Assembly (NCBI GenBank): GCA_903839465.1
Contig: CAIMCI010000077.1
Location: 1 to 32,308 of the forward strand
Reading direction: 5' to 3'
Source of the DNA: an uncultured Pseudomonadota bacterium
GTDB taxonomy: Bacteria > Pseudomonadota > Gammaproteobacteria > Steroidobacterales > Steroidobacteraceae
Length of the DNA stretch: 32,308 nucleotides
The position numbers were made by a program, and so were the translations under genes. Below are positions 3,758 to 15,527 of this stretch, piece after piece (position 1 is the stretch's first letter; the number at the start of each line of letters is the position of its first letter). The notes under the pieces are model-generated. The model saw only the letters and a program-made list of their open reading frames with translations, searched no databases and was not told the DNA's origin.

Positions 3758-3770
3758 GTCGGAGCCTGCG

Positions 3771-3800
3771 CCGGACGGACCCGCTGCGGGGTCCGTCCGG
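3771..3800 (+). terminator. Hairpin after isocitrate lyase
   Basis: The perfect 12-bp inverted repeat CCGGACGGACCC / GGGTCCGTCCGG has a 6-nt loop (GCTGCG). It begins 13 nt after the aceA stop. There is no T tract behind it, so it may act as a stem-only terminator or protect the aceA transcript 3' end. It also sits just upstream of the icd promoter. Confidence 0.65.
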
Positions 3801-3819
3801 CCGCCCCCGCGCCCGGCCG

Positions 3820-8560: not shown

Positions 8561-8634
8561 GGCTGGGTGGCAGAGTGGTCATGCAGCGGCCTGCAAAGCC
8601 GTCTACGCCGGTTCGATTCCGACCCCAGCCTCCA
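8561..8634 (+). tRNA. tRNA-Cys (anticodon GCA)
   Basis: The 74-nt cloverleaf has acceptor arms GGCTGGG / CCCAGCC, an anticodon arm GCGGC-CTGCAAA-GCCGT carrying GCA, T-loop GTTCGATTC, and encoded CCA at 8632-8634. It lies 89 bp after tRNA-Gly and is probably co-transcribed from the promoter at 8351-8378. In E. coli tRNA-Leu(UAA) follows cysT. Here no tRNA follows, and a tRNA-Leu(UAA) is found instead at 24305-24391. Confidence 0.97.
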
Positions 8635-8865: not shown

Positions 8866-11800
8866 TCAGCGATCCCTGCCCCCGCCGTAGTGCAGCCGCA
8901 GGCCGAAGGTCCTCGGCGGGGTAACGATTTCCGGCATCGACAGTCCCGGGTAGTAGTCGTAGCCCGACGAGTTGAAGAAGACGACGCCGCGGGTGTTCCA
9001 GAGATTCGTGACGAAGGCCTCGAGGCGGATTGCGCCGTTGGCGCGTTCGGCACCCAGGCGCAGGTTTCCGAGCGTGTACGGGTCCTGGAACGTGCGCCGG
9101 TCGATCCGGAGGCTGTTCCACATGCCGCCCTTGTGGCTGCAGTCGAACTGGCCGAAGGCGACCCAGCCGCCGGTCACGAGCTGCTCGTAGCGCGCCGACG
9201 CGCTCCAGTTGAGGGTCGGTGCCGCGGCCAGGCGCTGGCCCGGCACCACTTGGAAGCTCGGCTGCAGGAACGCGTTGTTGACGAGCGTCGACTCGTTCAG
9301 GTTTCCGGCCCAACTCAGTTCCAGGCCGGTGAGTGGTTTCCACGCCAGCGCGGTCTCGGCGCCCCAGATCCGCGCATCGCCGATATTCGCAGCAAAGGAA
9401 TACGGCGCGGACGGGATGCTGACCGTCACCTGGTACTCCTTCCACGGCATGTAGTAGAGCGCGCTGTTCCAGGTCAGGCGCGCATCGGGTCGCTGGAACT
9501 TCGCGCCGACCTCGAAGCTGTTCAGCGTGTCGGGGCGGGCAAACGCGGGCACGAACTGCGCCGGGTTCGCCGGGACGGTATTGAATTCACCGTCGCGAAA
9601 GCCCTGCGCGAAGAGGAAATACAGCAGCGTGTCCGGTCGCAGCCGCAGGTTGAGACCTGCCCTCACGTTGGTCTTGTCCGAGTGCACGCCGCCGTCGCTC
9701 GGCGTCTTCGCGTTGAAGAAGTGTCCGGCCCAGTACTGGTGCTGCGATGACGACGTATGGAAGTGCTGCAGGCCGGTCTCGATACTGACGCGCGGGCTCA
9801 AATCGATCGTCACGTCACCGAACCCGGAGCGGTGCGTCGTGCGGTAGGAGGCATAGCCGCTGTAGAACTCCTCGGGCAGGGGAGTCGCCGTATTGCCGTA
9901 CGCCGAAATGGCGTGCCGTGCAAAAGCCCCGCTGAAATCAATGTTGGGCAGGTGCTCGAACCCGTGGTAGGGATCGAGTGTCTTTTCCCAGTACGCGCCC
10001 ACCGTCCAGTGCGCGCGGCCGCCGCCCTGCGACTGCAGGCGCAGTTCGTTCGAATACCGTTCAATCTCGCCCGCCACCTCGCCGTACATGACCGGTGCCC
10101 TGCAGCCGCGGTAGCCGGTGCCCCAGGTGGGATCGGACGCGCAGGTGGCGGCATTGACGTAGTGCGAGTAGGAACTGTACTGCGCGTAGTCCGAGAAGTC
10201 GTAGAGCCGCCGGTTCGTCTGCTTGGAGACGCCGCCGACGTAGACCAGGTTGCCGATCGGTGTGTCACCGGCGACGTGCAGCTCCAGGAACCGCCCGTCG
10301 TTGGAGCCGCCCTGCGGCGCGAAGCGGCGCAGTTCGCGGGGGCCGACGGTCGCCGGGTTCTCGTCCCAGCTGCCGCGGTATTCCTGTCGCTGGTAGTACC
10401 CGGTCAGCCGTGCCGTCCAGCCGCCGGGAAACGCCTGCTGGACAGCCAGTCGCCCGCCCTGCACGTCGCGGGTGTTCCAGTTGCGTGCCGCCCAGGCGTC
10501 GTTCGTCGACACCACCCCGTTCAGCCAGTGCCGGGTACCGGGGACGTTGTCGATGTAGCCCCCCTCGTGCACGTCGTAGGCCGACATGCGCAGGCCCAGC
10601 GAGTCCGCGACGAGCGGCAGGTTGAGGTAGGCCTGGTAGGTACCGTTGCCGGCGCCGCCGTCGAACGTCGAGCCCTCGACGTCGACGCCGGCGGCCAGGC
10701 CGGTCGGATCGGGCTTCTTCGTGACGATCCGCACCGTACCGGACAGCGAACCGGGTCCGAGCAGCGTGCCCTGCGGACCGCTCTGGATTTCGATGCGCTC
10801 GATGTCATAGAGGTGCAGGTCCGGGTCGTGCCCGTAGAACGCGAGCGACAGGTCGTCCACCATGAACCCGGTCGTGGAGTGCTGCGAAGAGCCGTAGTTG
10901 GCGTTGCTGCCGTCGGACGCACCGCGGATGAAGAGGCGCTGGCCGCCGGGTCCCGTGCTGATCAGCGACAGCGAGGGGGCGATCGTCGCGAAATCCTCGA
11001 TCCGGACCACGTTGCGATTCTGGACGTCGCGGGCCGTGAGCACGTCGATGTTCTGCGGCACGTCCTGGAGGCGCTCAGTGCGCTTGCGGGCGGTCACGAC
11101 GATTTCCTCCAGCGCCGAGGGCAGGGGGTCGGCGGCGACCGGGTGCACCGCGAGCGCTGCCGCCACCGCGGCGCTGAGGGTCATGGCCTTCGCCGGTTGT
11201 TCGCGGGCCGGGCGCTTGTGCGCCCGGCCCGCCGGCGGGCGGGGCGCCGGTTCTCCCGCCCGTTCGCCGACCAGTTCCGCGGGAAAGCGCGCGAGGCAGG
11301 GCCCGAGCGCCGCGCGCAACGGCCGAAGGTGCCGCTCGAAGGCCCGGTACTGGCCGATCCCGGATTCGTACAGCGGCTGGCGCACCTGTTCGGAACTCGC
11401 GGTGCGCACCGGTCGGTCGTTGCGGTGGAAGTCGAGGCAGCGGGCGTCGAACGGTACGCCGCAGTGGGCGAGCAGTCGGCGCACCGCAGGCTCGGGGTCC
11501 CGGACCAGATCCTCGTAGGACAGGTGCAGCACGCGGCCCGGCAGCACCCGGTCCCAGTGGTCCATCAGCTCGAGGTACTGGCGGTAGTACCGTCCGAGCG
11601 TCGCCAGGTCGTAGGTGAAGCGCTGGCCCGCCGCGAAGTTCTGCTTGTAGCAGCTGAAGCAGCTGTCCATCGGGTTGCGGCGGACGTCGATGATCGTCGC
11701 GTTCGGCAGCATCGCGTGGATGAGCCCGATGTGCAGGAAGTTGTTCGGCAGCTTGTCGATGAAACGCGGTCGACCGGTGCGCAGGGGCCGGGTCTCGGCG

Positions 11801-12675
11801 AGGTAGCGCTGCCCGAGCCGCCGGAAGGTCGTGGCGGGTGAGGCGACCGCGGACTCGGGATAGGCGTCGCCGTTCCCGGCAAGGCGCTCGAAGTCACCGA
11901 TGTACATCGGGACGTTCGGCAGCTCCATCGTCCCCTCGATGTCCGGATGGCTGGACAGGATCTGCTCGACGAGCGTCGAGCCCGACCGCGGCAGGCCGAC
12001 GATGAAGATCGGATCGGGGTCCGCGCAGCCACTTCCCGGCCATCGGCCAACGAAGGACGTGTCGAAGGCCTCGATGACCCGGCGGCATTTGGCCTCGAAC
12101 GCCTCGGCGTCGAACGGCGATTTGCGGTACCGGAGCGTGTTTCCGGTCGCGTAATGCGCGAACGCGCGGTCGGCGGCGCCACGCTGCTCCCAGGCCCGGC
12201 CCAGCGCGAAATGCAGCCGGGACTGGTTCGGCGCGCCGCCCGCCCCGGAGCGGACGGCGGCTTGCATCGCACGGATTTCCGCGTCGTCGAAGCGGTAGGT
12301 CTTGAGGTCCGCGAGGCTCCAGTAGGCCTCGCCCGAGGCGGGATCCGCCTCCACGCACTCCCGGTAGGTGCGCTCGCACTCCGCCCGCCGGCCGAGCGTT
12401 TTCAGCACGTGGCCGATCGAGAGGTGGAGGAGCGGTACACCGGGGTCCAGCCGCTCGGCGGCCCGGTAGGCATCCAGCGCCGCTTCCGGGCGCTGCAGCC
12501 GGCTGTGCACGGAGGCGAGCGCCACCCAATGGGCGGCAACGTCCGGGCACAGCGCCAGCGCCTCGGAAATCGCGGCTTCGGCCTCGACCAGCCTGCCGCG
12601 GGCGATCAGCTGCTGGCCGTGCTCCGCCCGGCGACGCGCCAGCGCTCGCCGTTCCTGGTCCGCCGACGCTTCCAT
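8866..12675 (-). CDS. TPR-sulfotransferase fused in frame to a TonB-dependent receptor
   Basis: One uninterrupted 1269-codon frame joins two proteins normally made separately. Residues 1-200 are TPR-like helices (EAALDAYRAAERLDP, ECERTYRECVEADP). Residues 220-460 form a PAPS-dependent sulfotransferase domain: the 5'-phosphosulfate loop is FIVGLPRSGSTLVEQIL, the 3'-phosphate region is VRRNPMDSCFSCYKQNF, and HLSYEDLV follows. After an Ala/Pro/Arg-rich linker (467-497) comes a signal-peptide-like stretch at M498-A515, a TonB box EEIVVTA at 523-529, then plug and beta-barrel to the end, a normal 754-residue mature receptor. The start ATG 12675 has GGAG 6 nt upstream. The internal ATG 11184-11182 has only GAAGG 2 nt before it. 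The gene may work as a true fusion, may reinitiate at M498, or may be two genes whose separating stop has been lost. Substrates of both halves are unknown. Confidence 0.85.
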   Translation of the reverse strand: MEASADQERRALARRRAEHGQQLIARGRLVEAEAAISEALALCPDVAAHWVALASVHSRLQRPEAALDAYRAAERLDPGVPLLHLSIGHVLKTLGRRAECERTYRECVEADPASGEAYWSLADLKTYRFDDAEIRAMQAAVRSGAGGAPNQSRLHFALGRAWEQRGAADRAFAHYATGNTLRYRKSPFDAEAFEAKCRRVIEAFDTSFVGRWPGSGCADPDPIFIVGLPRSGSTLVEQILSSHPDIEGTMELPNVPMYIGDFERLAGNGDAYPESAVASPATTFRRLGQRYLAETRPLRTGRPRFIDKLPNNFLHIGLIHAMLPNATIIDVRRNPMDSCFSCYKQNFAAGQRFTYDLATLGRYYRQYLELMDHWDRVLPGRVLHLSYEDLVRDPEPAVRRLLAHCGVPFDARCLDFHRNDRPVRTASSEQVRQPLYESGIGQYRAFERHLRPLRAALGPCLARFPAELVGERAGEPAPRPPAGRAHKRPAREQPAKAMTLSAAVAAALAVHPVAADPLPSALEEIVVTARKRTERLQDVPQNIDVLTARDVQNRNVVRIEDFATIAPSLSLISTGPGGQRLFIRGASDGSNANYGSSQHSTTGFMVDDLSLAFYGHDPDLHLYDIERIEIQSGPQGTLLGPGSLSGTVRIVTKKPDPTGLAAGVDVEGSTFDGGAGNGTYQAYLNLPLVADSLGLRMSAYDVHEGGYIDNVPGTRHWLNGVVSTNDAWAARNWNTRDVQGGRLAVQQAFPGGWTARLTGYYQRQEYRGSWDENPATVGPRELRRFAPQGGSNDGRFLELHVAGDTPIGNLVYVGGVSKQTNRRLYDFSDYAQYSSYSHYVNAATCASDPTWGTGYRGCRAPVMYGEVAGEIERYSNELRLQSQGGGRAHWTVGAYWEKTLDPYHGFEHLPNIDFSGAFARHAISAYGNTATPLPEEFYSGYASYRTTHRSGFGDVTIDLSPRVSIETGLQHFHTSSSQHQYWAGHFFNAKTPSDGGVHSDKTNVRAGLNLRLRPDTLLYFLFAQGFRDGEFNTVPANPAQFVPAFARPDTLNSFEVGAKFQRPDARLTWNSALYYMPWKEYQVTVSIPSAPYSFAANIGDARIWGAETALAWKPLTGLELSWAGNLNESTLVNNAFLQPSFQVVPGQRLAAAPTLNWSASARYEQLVTGGWVAFGQFDCSHKGGMWNSLRIDRRTFQDPYTLGNLRLGAERANGAIRLEAFVTNLWNTRGVVFFNSSGYDYYPGLSMPEIVTPPRTFGLRLHYGGGRDR

Positions 12676-13009
12676 GCTGCGCTCCGACTCCGATGCCGTG
12701 GCCCGTCCCGGGGCCTGGTGCCGAACCCGCCCCTATCCTATAACGGCCACGGGGAGCGCCGCCTGACGGAGCCGTGACTGCGGCGACCGGGTGCGCCGAT
12801 TTGTGGCGGCGCGTCACGCCCGTGCGGGGCCCGCCGCCGGCCCGGTCGCGGACGGCGCCGTCCGAATGCCGAACTTTCCGACGGACGCCCCGAATCGCGG
12901 AGTGAACGCCTTGGCGCGCTGCGTGACCGCGTGCCCGAGGCGTCCGCGGGGCCCGATCGCGGGCCCGCGCCGCGTGCGGGGGCTGGAACGGCTTGCTAGC
13001 ATCGCCTTC
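12676..13009. other. Divergent intergenic region between the fusion gene and the LytS operon
   Basis: These 334 bp hold no supported gene; the in-frame extension of the kinase to 12791 is low-complexity Arg/Pro/Ala sequence. On the minus strand TATAGGAT near 12735-12742 could be the -10 of the fusion gene, about 60 nt before its ATG. An inverted repeat GGGCCCG-ATCG-CGGGCCC at 12949-12966 lies about 28 nt upstream of the kinase -10 and could be a protein-binding site. That role is inference. Confidence 0.4.
12994..13002 (+). promoter_or_regulatory. Extended -10 of the LytS-type operon, apparently leaderless
   Basis: TGC-TAGCAT ends 7 nt before the kinase ATG at 13010, so transcription should begin at or beside the start codon. 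There is no Shine-Dalgarno-like sequence in the gap. It has the same arrangement as the DAHP synthase and SUI1 genes. Confidence 0.5.
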
Positions 13010-14083
13010 ATGGGCACACGCGAAGGGCTGCAGCTGCCGGGATTTCGCTGGATTGCGCGCCTGCGCGATCGCGGCCTGTTCGCGGGCTGGCGTTACACGC
13101 TGTTCGTCACGCTCGGGCTGATGACGGCGTGGGATCTCGATAGCTTTTCCTACCACTGGATCGAGCACGGCTTCGTGACCGCGGTGCGCGAGGCATTCTG
13201 GTTCTGGCTGATCATGACGGCCCACCAGCTGCCGACCGTGCCGCTGATCACGGCCGGCATCAACACGGCGCCGGCGTTCGGCGCGCGCCGCTACGCGTGG
13301 CTCACCATGGTGGGCGTCGTCGCATGGGCGTTCTGCACGCTTTTCTTCACGATCGAGGACCGGGCTTTCGTGCCGAACCTCCAGTACGCGCTGATGGTCG
13401 CCATGATCATCGCTGCCTGCGTCTACAGGGGCTCTGCCCGCACGACCAGCACGCGCCTCATCCAGGAGCGGGTCGAGGCCGTTGCGCTCGATGCGGACGT
13501 CAAGCGAACCCGCCTGCAGCTCCTGCGCGCGCAGATCGAGCCGCACTTCCTGTTCAACACGCTTGCCAACGTGCGTACGCTGGCGCGCGTCGACCGGCTC
13601 GCGGCGGTCGCGATGCTCGACCACCTGATGCGGTATTTCTCCGAGGCCCTGCCCAAGCTGCGCCAGGAGGAATCCTCCCTTGGTGACGAGTTGCACCTGA
13701 TTGACTCGTATCTGTCCATACACCAGATCCGGATGGGCGCGCGCCTGACCTACGAGCTGCAGGTCCCGTCGGAGCTGGCGGTTGCGCGCATTCCGACGAT
13801 GATGCTCCTGACGCTGGTCGAGAACGCGGTCAAGCACGGCATCAACCCGGCCCGCGACGGCGGGTCCATCGAGGTCTCGGCCAGCCGTGAGCAAGGCCAT
13901 CTGGTGCTCAAGGTCGCCGATTCCGGCAACGGGCTGTCCGTGACGGACGGCAACGGGACCGGGCTTGCCAATATCCGCCGCCGGCTCAGCATGCTCTACG
14001 GCGATGAGGCCGTGCTGTCGCTCGCCCCGGCCGCGAGGCGCGGCGTCGTCGCGACGGTGTCGATCCCGCTCGCCGCGGCATGA
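13010..14083 (+). CDS. LytS/YehU-family sensor histidine kinase
   Basis: This is a 357-residue membrane kinase. About four hydrophobic segments occupy residues 28-140 (for example FWFWLIMTAHQLPTVPLI and ALMVAMIIAACVY). The His_kinase phospho-acceptor region reads LRAQIEPHFLFNTLANV with His 179. The GHKL ATPase has its N box at LVENAVKHGI (269-278), a G1-like box at VADSGNGL, and GTGLANIRRRL. This domain set pairs with LytTR response regulators, and one is encoded two genes downstream. The start ATG 13010 is chosen because upstream sequence is not protein-like and an extended -10 sits 7 nt before it. The stop overlaps the next gene by ATGA. The signal sensed is unknown; no extracytoplasmic ligand-binding domain is visible. 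Confidence 0.92.
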   Translation: MGTREGLQLPGFRWIARLRDRGLFAGWRYTLFVTLGLMTAWDLDSFSYHWIEHGFVTAVREAFWFWLIMTAHQLPTVPLITAGINTAPAFGARRYAWLTMVGVVAWAFCTLFFTIEDRAFVPNLQYALMVAMIIAACVYRGSARTTSTRLIQERVEAVALDADVKRTRLQLLRAQIEPHFLFNTLANVRTLARVDRLAAVAMLDHLMRYFSEALPKLRQEESSLGDELHLIDSYLSIHQIRMGARLTYELQVPSELAVARIPTMMLLTLVENAVKHGINPARDGGSIEVSASREQGHLVLKVADSGNGLSVTDGNGTGLANIRRRLSMLYGDEAVLSLAPAARRGVVATVSIPLAAA

Positions 14084-14778
14084 GCGCCTTTCTGTGCGCG
14101 GCTCTCCGCCCGCTGCGCGCGCTGCGGTGGCGGACGCTGTTCGCCCTTGAGGTGCTCGGGCAATGCGCGATCCTGGTCGAATCGACGGAGGATTTCCTGT
14201 TCGGCACATGGTTCGGCCACCCGAGTCTGCACTATGCCTCCATGGCGCTGAACGTCCTGCTGCTTATCCCGGTCGGCCTCGTCGCGGATGCGCTGGTCGC
14301 TCGCGGCGCCCGCGAGCGCTACGTGTATACAACGGCCGTTTTCGCCACCTGGCCGGTGGCGTTTCTGTCGACCTGCACGATGGAGTGGCTGTACCTGAGG
14401 GTCTTTGCCGTGCCGCCGGGTGTGCCAAACCTGTTCTGGAAGGCGGCGTTCATGACCAGCAATCACTTGTACATCTACGGCGCGTTCGCGCTGCTCGTCT
14501 ACTTCAACCAGCGGATGGCCGACCGGCTGCTCGAGAATTTCCGCGACGCCGAGTTGCGCCGCGTCACGCTCGAGCAGCAGCTGGCGGCATCCCGGCTTGC
14601 CGCGGAAGAGGCGCAGGTAGACCCGCGCCGGCTGTTTGACGACCTCGCGCGGATACGCGGGGAATTCGCCGACGACGCCCCGGGCGCCGAAGACAGCCTG
14701 AACGACCTGATCCAGTCGCTGCGGACCGCCATGGGGCGCACCAGGGAGGTCGATGCGCCCAGGGGAGAAGTCCCTTGA
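14080..14778 (+). CDS. Degenerate LytS-like membrane protein lacking phospho-acceptor His and ATPase domain
   Basis: This 232-residue protein sits between a histidine kinase and its response regulator, overlapping both (ATGA at 14080-14083, TTGA at 14775-14778). Residues 15-145 hold about four hydrophobic segments, like the neighbouring kinase. The next part, LEQQLAASRLAAEEAQ then VDPRRLFDDLARIR, lines up with the kinase His region (AQIEPHFLFNTLANVR). The invariant His-Phe is replaced by Arg183-Arg184 and Asn by Asp187. The protein then ends without any ATP-binding domain. It can neither be phosphorylated at the usual site nor bind ATP. I infer a pseudokinase or co-sensor that may dimerise with the active kinase. 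A decayed duplicate kinase is the alternative, but the intact frame and tight coupling argue for function. Confidence 0.8.
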   Translation: MSAFLCAALRPLRALRWRTLFALEVLGQCAILVESTEDFLFGTWFGHPSLHYASMALNVLLLIPVGLVADALVARGARERYVYTTAVFATWPVAFLSTCTMEWLYLRVFAVPPGVPNLFWKAAFMTSNHLYIYGAFALLVYFNQRMADRLLENFRDAELRRVTLEQQLAASRLAAEEAQVDPRRLFDDLARIRGEFADDAPGAEDSLNDLIQSLRTAMGRTREVDAPRGEVP

Positions 14779-15527
14779 AGGGACCCACCGCCGTCATCGC
14801 CGAGGACGAACCGATGCTGCGCGCGGAGATCCGCGACCTGTTGCGAACGCACTGGCCGGAGCTCGAAATCAGCGCCGAGGCCGAGGACGGCGTGCAGGCC
14901 ATCGAGGCGCTCGAGCGGTACGGTCCGAACGTCCTCTTCCTCGACATCCAGATGCCCGGGGCGACCGGCATCGAGGTGGCGCGGCACGCAAGCGGCAGGG
15001 CCCACGTCGTGTTCCTCACCGCGTACGACGCCTATGCGCTGCAGGCCTTCGAGCAGGGTGCCGTCGACTACCTCCTGAAGCCCGTGGCGGCCGACCGCCT
15101 GCAGGTCGCCATCGAGCGGGTGCGCGGACGCCTGCGCGAGCCGCCGGCGGATCTCAACGGCCTTACCGAGCTGCTGCGAAGCGCGCTCGGCAAGGAACGC
15201 CAGTACCTGAAATGGCTGACCGTGCCGCGAGGGACGGAGCTGCGCGTGGTCGCGACCGACGAAATCGACTACCTGCAGGCTTCGAACAAATACACGACGG
15301 TCAACACGCGCGGGGGCTCCTTCCTGCTGACCTCGTCGCTGAAAGAGATGCAGGAGAAGCTCGACCCGGCGGTCTTCCTGCAGATCCATCGCGGCATCAT
15401 CGTCAACGTCAGTCGCATCGAGACGATCTACCGGTCCTTCCGCGGCTCGCTCGAAGTGAAGCTCAAGGACCGCAAGGAGCTGCTCCCGGTGAGCGGCTCG
15501 CACGCGCACCTGTTCCGGCAGTCCTGA
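14775..15527 (+). CDS. LytTR-family response regulator
   Basis: This 250-residue cytoplasmic regulator has a receiver domain at residues 5-120, with acidic pocket EDE at 10-12, phospho-acceptor Asp 57 in VLFLDIQMPG, the LTAYD switch region and Lys 102 in YLLKP. A LytTR DNA-binding domain covers roughly 150-248 (IDYLQASNKYTTV, FLQIHRGIIVNVSRI). It probably receives phosphate from the kinase at 13010-14083. The start is TTG 14775, with AGGGGAG at a good distance, and the codon overlaps the stop of the preceding gene. Targets are unknown; the divergent sulfotransferase-receptor gene and the secreted protein downstream are the natural candidates. Confidence 0.95.
   Translation: MKGPTAVIAEDEPMLRAEIRDLLRTHWPELEISAEAEDGVQAIEALERYGPNVLFLDIQMPGATGIEVARHASGRAHVVFLTAYDAYALQAFEQGAVDYLLKPVAADRLQVAIERVRGRLREPPADLNGLTELLRSALGKERQYLKWLTVPRGTELRVVATDEIDYLQASNKYTTVNTRGGSFLLTSSLKEMQEKLDPAVFLQIHRGIIVNVSRIETIYRSFRGSLEVKLKDRKELLPVSGSHAHLFRQS

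Follow-up and report, generated by a model that had tools for sequence, protein, structure and literature searches.

The window analysed here, a stretch of 32,308 nucleotides, is contig CAIMCI010000077.1 (C77) from the genome of an uncultured bacterium of the Steroidobacteraceae (GCA_903839465.1, referred to as G000; 3.86-Mb assembly, 421 contigs). Its minus strand carries an open reading frame (ORF) in which a sulfotransferase with tetratricopeptide repeats (TPRs) and a TonB-dependent receptor follow each other without an intervening stop codon. The main features of this locus, all on the minus strand and numbered as in the window, are the following:

8866 to 12675, minus strand: fused ORF of 1269 codons, encoding TPR-sulfotransferase, linker and TonB-dependent receptor
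12682 to 12685, minus strand: Shine-Dalgarno-like GGAG, 6 nt before ATG 12675
11269 to 12675, minus strand: residues 1-469, TPRs and sulfotransferase domain (Sulfotransfer_3, 222-410), nearest solved folds TPST1/2
11185 to 11268, minus strand: residues 470-497, disordered linker rich in A, P, R and G, probably a former intergenic spacer, with a stop in none of the three frames
11203 to 11232, minus strand: perfect hairpin with a 13-bp stem and a 4-nt loop, GCGGGCCGGGCGC-ACAA-GCGCCCGGCCCGC, of a type that usually marks the 3' ends of genes in this genome
11235 to 11247, minus strand: third copy of the hairpin arm with one mismatch, an alternative pairing partner
11181 to 11184, minus strand: ATGA, in which the internal ATG is overlapped by a TGA of the neighbouring (+1) frame
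11131 to 11184, minus strand: residues 498-515, internal signal-peptide-like stretch with ATG 11184 as start, h-region LSAAVAAALAV and a VAA|D cleavage-type site at which cleavage is predicted
8866 to 11130, minus strand: residues 516-1269, receptor with TonB box (about 11089-11106), plug (10735-11070) and 22-strand barrel

The uninterrupted frame had been described in an earlier note on this DNA and was confirmed by our reading of the ORF, which runs free of stops through 1269 codons from ATG 12675 to 8866, and by Pfam matches on either side of the junction, namely Sulfotransfer_3 (PF13469) at residues 222-410 (E 2e-51) and the TonB plug (PF07715) at residues 536-647 (E 4e-13). The TonB box LEEIVVTARKR, the internal ATG (11184-11182), the signal-like stretch 498-515 and the basic segment KRPAREQPAK were all found where that note had placed them. 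Both halves of the ORF are intact, and the coding signal is strong in both. The in-frame join of the two genes is real in the assembly and, judged from the domain matches, the presence of homologous domains in one frame on both sides of the junction is not due to chance. Taken alone, the open linker of about 30 codons is weak evidence for a fusion, since the genome is GC-rich (67%) and none of the three frames contains a stop between the end of the enzyme and ATG 11184. The lack of a stop in all three frames also implies that the ancestral stop was lost by substitution or deletion and was not just frame-shifted.

The structures of the two halves were predicted, at fair to good confidence, with AlphaFold2 from alignments of the window sequence with its relatives. 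The model of the enzyme half reached a predicted local distance difference test score (pLDDT) of 90.2; its helices begin at residue 2 and its tail (470-497) is disordered, and the ten best Foldseek matches to it were all tyrosylprotein sulfotransferases. Residues R230, G232, S233, T234, E251, K308, R332, R333 and P335 are invariant among 32 sequences (31 unfused relatives and the fused enzyme), and both the 5' and the 3' binding motifs for 3'-phosphoadenosine 5'-phosphosulfate (PAPS) are intact. E251, which lies 21 residues behind R230, occupies what we take to be the position of the catalytic Glu of TPST2. TPR matches and helix pairs from residue 2 onwards show that an N-terminal TPR array precedes the sulfotransferase domain. 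This array is shorter than that of the orthologs, of which some 230-260 TPR-rich N-terminal residues are missing from the fused enzyme, a truncation that the earlier note had overlooked; the missing repeats are not hidden in another frame upstream of the ORF, where no TPR match was found. Within its tree the enzyme half shows no acceleration (root-to-tip distance 0.72 against a median of 0.73). The enzyme probably acts as in the unfused pairs, that is, in the sulfation of a protein or peptide substrate.

The model of the receptor half (pLDDT 75.5) comprises a plug and 22 barrel strands, as counted in the DSSP list; residues 469-541 of the ORF, the first 73 in this model, score below 50. The linker, which was below 50 in both half-models, is thus predicted to be disordered. 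FyuA, Fiu, PiuA, PqqU and FhuA ranked near the top of the Foldseek matches to the receptor, and its TonB box LEEIVVTARKR aligns with that of the relatives. As in the unfused pairs, the receptor would probably serve a putative TonB-driven uptake of a ligand.

Relatives of the locus were searched in 1,344 genomes, which included the whole family set of 217 and samples of the order, the class and the phylum, and the best loci were re-read strictly for stops. This gave 69 rows with four loci counted twice, i.e., about 65 distinct pairs in which the receptor gene follows the enzyme gene, and none of these is fused. Frame lengths of about 1500 had suggested further fusions; those lengths ran across stops, and none was left after strict re-reading. 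The apparent fusion at locus L090 proved to be a contig-edge artefact in a different frame. The fusion is therefore not conserved in related species and was found in this genome only, of everything searched; the other two genomes of the genus contain no close ortholog of the fused gene. The orthologous enzymes terminate 0-12 residues past the last conserved segment, and the receptor usually starts tens to about 150 nt further downstream and its signal peptide bears a basic n-region. In 17 distinct pairs the two genes are kept apart by just one in-frame stop (the sample is weighted towards in-frame matches, so that neither the 17 nor the same-frame excess can be read as a frequency); a single mutation would therefore be enough for such a fusion. 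The statement of the earlier note that genes of these families often adjoin each other in proteobacteria is borne out by a receptor match beside 15 of 23 sampled sulfotransferase loci (best locus per genome, 1.5 kb flanks read). In numerous genomes across the phylum, TPR-sulfotransferases akin to this enzyme with its TPST-like fold adjoin TonB-dependent receptors, often in several copies per genome (L015-L037, L075-L125), and in one of the pairs (L041, G011:C57) the receptor gene beside the enzyme is interrupted by several stops in frame, an apparent pseudogene.

The separation of the genes in all relatives argues, on this comparison, against a conserved functional fusion. The earlier note had held that separate genes in all close relatives would refute the fusion; they are indeed separate at family level and beyond, and the junction DNA as read is not thereby refuted. 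We give hardly any credence to a working uncleaved bifunctional protein whose sulfotransferase part would remain joined to the receptor and work at the membrane. The intact single frame and the neighbourhood of the two genes in many genomes would be in line with such a protein, but no other genome searched has kept the fusion; moreover, a barrel that carries a cytoplasmic domain of 50 kDa at its N-terminus should not arrive in the outer membrane unless it is cut, and PAPS is cytoplasmic. Recent loss of the stop between two genes, one of the options raised in the earlier note, gained support both from the separate genes of all relatives read and from an intergenic-type hairpin in the linker, and the comparison indicates that the fusion is most likely a lineage-specific, one-off loss of the gene boundary.

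This hairpin at the junction, which the earlier note had overlooked, has a stem made up of G and C only and lies in a stretch of 80% GC; a comparable hairpin arose in 2 of 20,000 composition-preserving shuffles of the linker region. We scanned 322 kb of the 3.86-Mb genome, and a simple codon model called 88% of this part coding. All six remaining perfect hairpins of at least 13 bp in it sit in non-genic sequence a short way past a stop codon, and the remaining 283 kb of coding sequence contain none; intergenic hairpins of at least 12 bp likewise lie close behind stops, mostly between converging genes. Such hairpins of 12-18 bp behind stops, mostly without a T-run, were seen at window 3770-3801 and at L137, L138, L139, L140, L142, L148 and L151, and they perhaps represent the terminator type of this genome. 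Since elsewhere in the genome such hairpins sit just behind stop codons, the sequence suggests that the linker is most likely the former intergenic spacer and its hairpin the 3'-end hairpin of the enzyme gene. The hairpin is not a repeated mobile palindrome, as it has a single genomic copy at up to 3 mismatches. The three alternating copies of the 13-base arm (11203-11247) could form two mutually exclusive hairpins in an attenuator-like manner. KRPAREQPAK, which the earlier note had read as a basic segment ahead of the signal, is largely encoded by one of the arms; its location holds, but it may be no purpose-built part of the signal.

The same stretch gives weight to a serious rival, which we nevertheless consider rather unlikely, namely that sequencing or assembly went wrong here, or that a strain-level lesion was captured, in a fragmented assembly of the metagenome type, while the population keeps two genes. 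A GC-rich (80%) inverted repeat with a 13-bp GC-only hairpin and a third copy of its arm is badly handled by short reads, the assembly is broken into 421 contigs and all relatives read are unfused. In addition, the +1 frame is open from the end of the enzyme to the TGA at 11183 that overlaps ATG 11184, so that an indel of one base in the linker would put the enzyme stop at the ATGA, a classical coupled arrangement. However, relatives have their stop within 0-12 codons of the last conserved residue, and here none of the three frames contains it; one indel would thus yield no more than an overlap, where most relatives have a spacer of another kind, and an ATG followed by A is not rare by chance.

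In the frame as read, the features of a possible N-terminal signal peptide of the receptor, an h-region and a VAA|D site, are both internal. The h-region LSAAVAAALAV resembles those of the relatives' signal peptides (LAIAAALAG type). If translation began at M498, the n-region would consist of 'MT' and contain neither K nor R, whereas the relatives have a median of four; among 38 relatives, K/R are missing at the nearest possible start in two, and both of these starts are GTGs inside or beside the h-region. In the full-length chain the h-region is preceded by HKRPAREQPAK. The arrangement of a coupled gene pair is lacking, as there is no stop near the receptor start in the enzyme's frame and the ATGA overlap exists only in the +1 frame. 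Reinitiation at ATG 11184, which the earlier note had offered as an option, is not available, because ribosomes that translate the fused frame run on past this point; the one possible start there would be by internal initiation de novo. The reading in which the fused frame is real and the receptor arises also, or mainly, from such initiation at ATG 11184 with a short signal peptide appears unlikely to us. This ATG stands where the h-region begins and follows the hairpin by 18 nt, the place at which a receptor start would be expected were the linker an old spacer. It has a poor Shine-Dalgarno match, however (AGG at spacing 2, compared with GGAG at spacing 6 for ATG 12675), a very stable RNA structure is present just upstream, coupling to the fused frame is of no help, and nearly all relatives differ from the K/R-free n-region of M498.

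A precursor that is cleaved is favoured over a start at M498 because the n-region of the latter lacks K/R and the full chain offers HKRPAREQPAK before the h-region. We therefore tentatively prefer, at somewhat less than an even chance, the reading that a conserved tandem pair lost the stop of its first gene in this lineage and now yields one precursor that is cut at the internal signal. After the loss of the stop, the spacer with its 3'-end hairpin would have become translated as a disordered linker. One long mRNA would be translated from ATG 12675 into a precursor of 1269 residues, the sulfotransferase part of which would fold in the cytoplasm. The internal signal (498-515), preceded by basic residues, may then enter the Sec pathway in N-in orientation, and signal peptidase I might cut near A515 (VAA|D) and release the receptor to the periplasm and the outer membrane, while the enzyme would remain a cytoplasmic domain with a short membrane anchor. 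Predicted cleavage at the internal signal is the likeliest way to a working receptor. A single ORF that encodes two proteins with an export-type signal at their join has the architecture of a polyprotein. That it is a natural one, in which enzyme and receptor are made as one chain, split by signal peptidase, produced in equal amounts and with the enzyme tethered to the inner membrane, is conceivable but doubtful.

Several observations weigh against the favoured loss of a gene boundary followed by cleavage. The fusion is known from one genome, the sole representative of its species among those searched, and the use of an internal signal behind a folded domain of 50 kDa is rare in bacteria. The in-frame codon score of the linker is ambiguous (9th percentile of coding and 96th percentile of non-coding windows) and leans towards coding. 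It is possible that the linker descends from a long basic n-region of the receptor, as the n-regions of same-clade relatives (L093, L091) are also rich in A, P, R and G; the spacer origin is preferred to such a relic because of the hairpin. The receptor has the longest branch of the set (root-to-tip 0.95 against a median of 0.84, midpoint rooting) and deviates at 24 of 149 conserved columns, the highest number of the set (next highest 12), both values being inflated since the fused sequence is the lone member of its lineage in the set, with no near sister. Branch length and deviations are compatible with a relaxed constraint.

The deviations also bear on the possibility, quite improbable in our view, that the locus is decaying towards a pseudogene, with truncated TPRs, a lost gene boundary and a receptor no longer exported. 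The 230-260 missing N-terminal residues of the enzyme and the deviating receptor would fit such a decay, and so would the position of the locus in a variable region by tRNA-Cys, at a site where both other genomes of the genus lack it; against it stand 3.8 kb without stop or frameshift, the intact PAPS-binding motifs, TonB box, plug and full barrel, and the strong coding signal of both halves. The left edge of this region is marked by the following feature:

8561 to 8634, plus strand: tRNA-Cys, at the left border of a variable region (8639 to about 19438) whose content is not the same in the three genomes of the genus

In one of the other two genomes (G002), uvrC-pgsA-tRNA-Gly-tRNA-Cys is 83% identical; the match ends at window 8638 and resumes at a PQQ dehydrogenase (19439). 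The content between tRNA-Cys and the PQQ dehydrogenase amounts to 10.8 kb in G000, 2.8 kb in G002 (sulfatase and GNAT-like genes) and about 9.7 kb of other genes in G001. The fused gene thus belongs to a variable region adjoining tRNA-Cys. An integration event that duplicated the tRNA-Cys end was considered and rejected, since no repeat of the tRNA-Cys 3' end was found in the window. None of its neighbours shares the orientation of the fused gene: on the plus strand, pgsA, tRNA-Gly and tRNA-Cys point towards it, and genes for a LytS-type histidine kinase and a LytTR regulator start on the plus strand about 115 nt from ATG 12675. This kinase/response regulator pair (window 12791-15524) is oriented divergently to the fused gene and could be its regulator.

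The fusion of two genes is classically taken as a hint that their products cooperate. The stronger evidence for a functional link is the wide neighbourhood of TPR-sulfotransferases and receptors, to which the fusion adds one weak vote; the literature searched yielded no paper on this gene pair and no description of what the neighbourhood does. The TPST-like fold raises the idea that the enzymes might sulfate tyrosines of the adjoining receptor or of its peptide ligand. If the precursor is cut at the internal signal, an outer-membrane barrel would be exportable from behind a large folded cytoplasmic enzyme.

The closest known arrangement is that of the unfused tandem pairs (L089, L087 and L039), which share with the fused gene the two families, their order and strand and the positions of TonB box and signal h-region, with about 55-61% identity in the enzyme and about 39-45% in the receptor. 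They differ in having a stop, usually a spacer of tens to about 150 nt, a start codon of the receptor's own, a basic n-region and 230-260 more N-terminal residues in the enzyme. TPST1 and TPST2 (PDB 5wrj, 3ap1, 8w5z), which make up the Foldseek top ten, have in common with the enzyme the PRSG(S/T)T loop and the Glu 21 residues behind its Arg; identity is about 20%, and the fused enzyme is bacterial and carries N-terminal TPRs. The siderophore-type receptors FyuA, Fiu and FhuA as well as PqqU resemble the receptor in plug, 22-strand barrel and TonB box (FyuA TM 0.69/0.87), with 12-16% identity, whereas here the receptor is fused behind an enzyme. FbcH of Bradyrhizobium is a cytochrome b/c1 precursor that is cut at an internal signal peptide, a processing reportedly demonstrated by experiment. 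The fused gene differs from it in that it occurs in a single genome, its processing is a prediction and its second product is an outer-membrane barrel, but in both cases one gene serves for two proteins and their boundary is an internal export signal.

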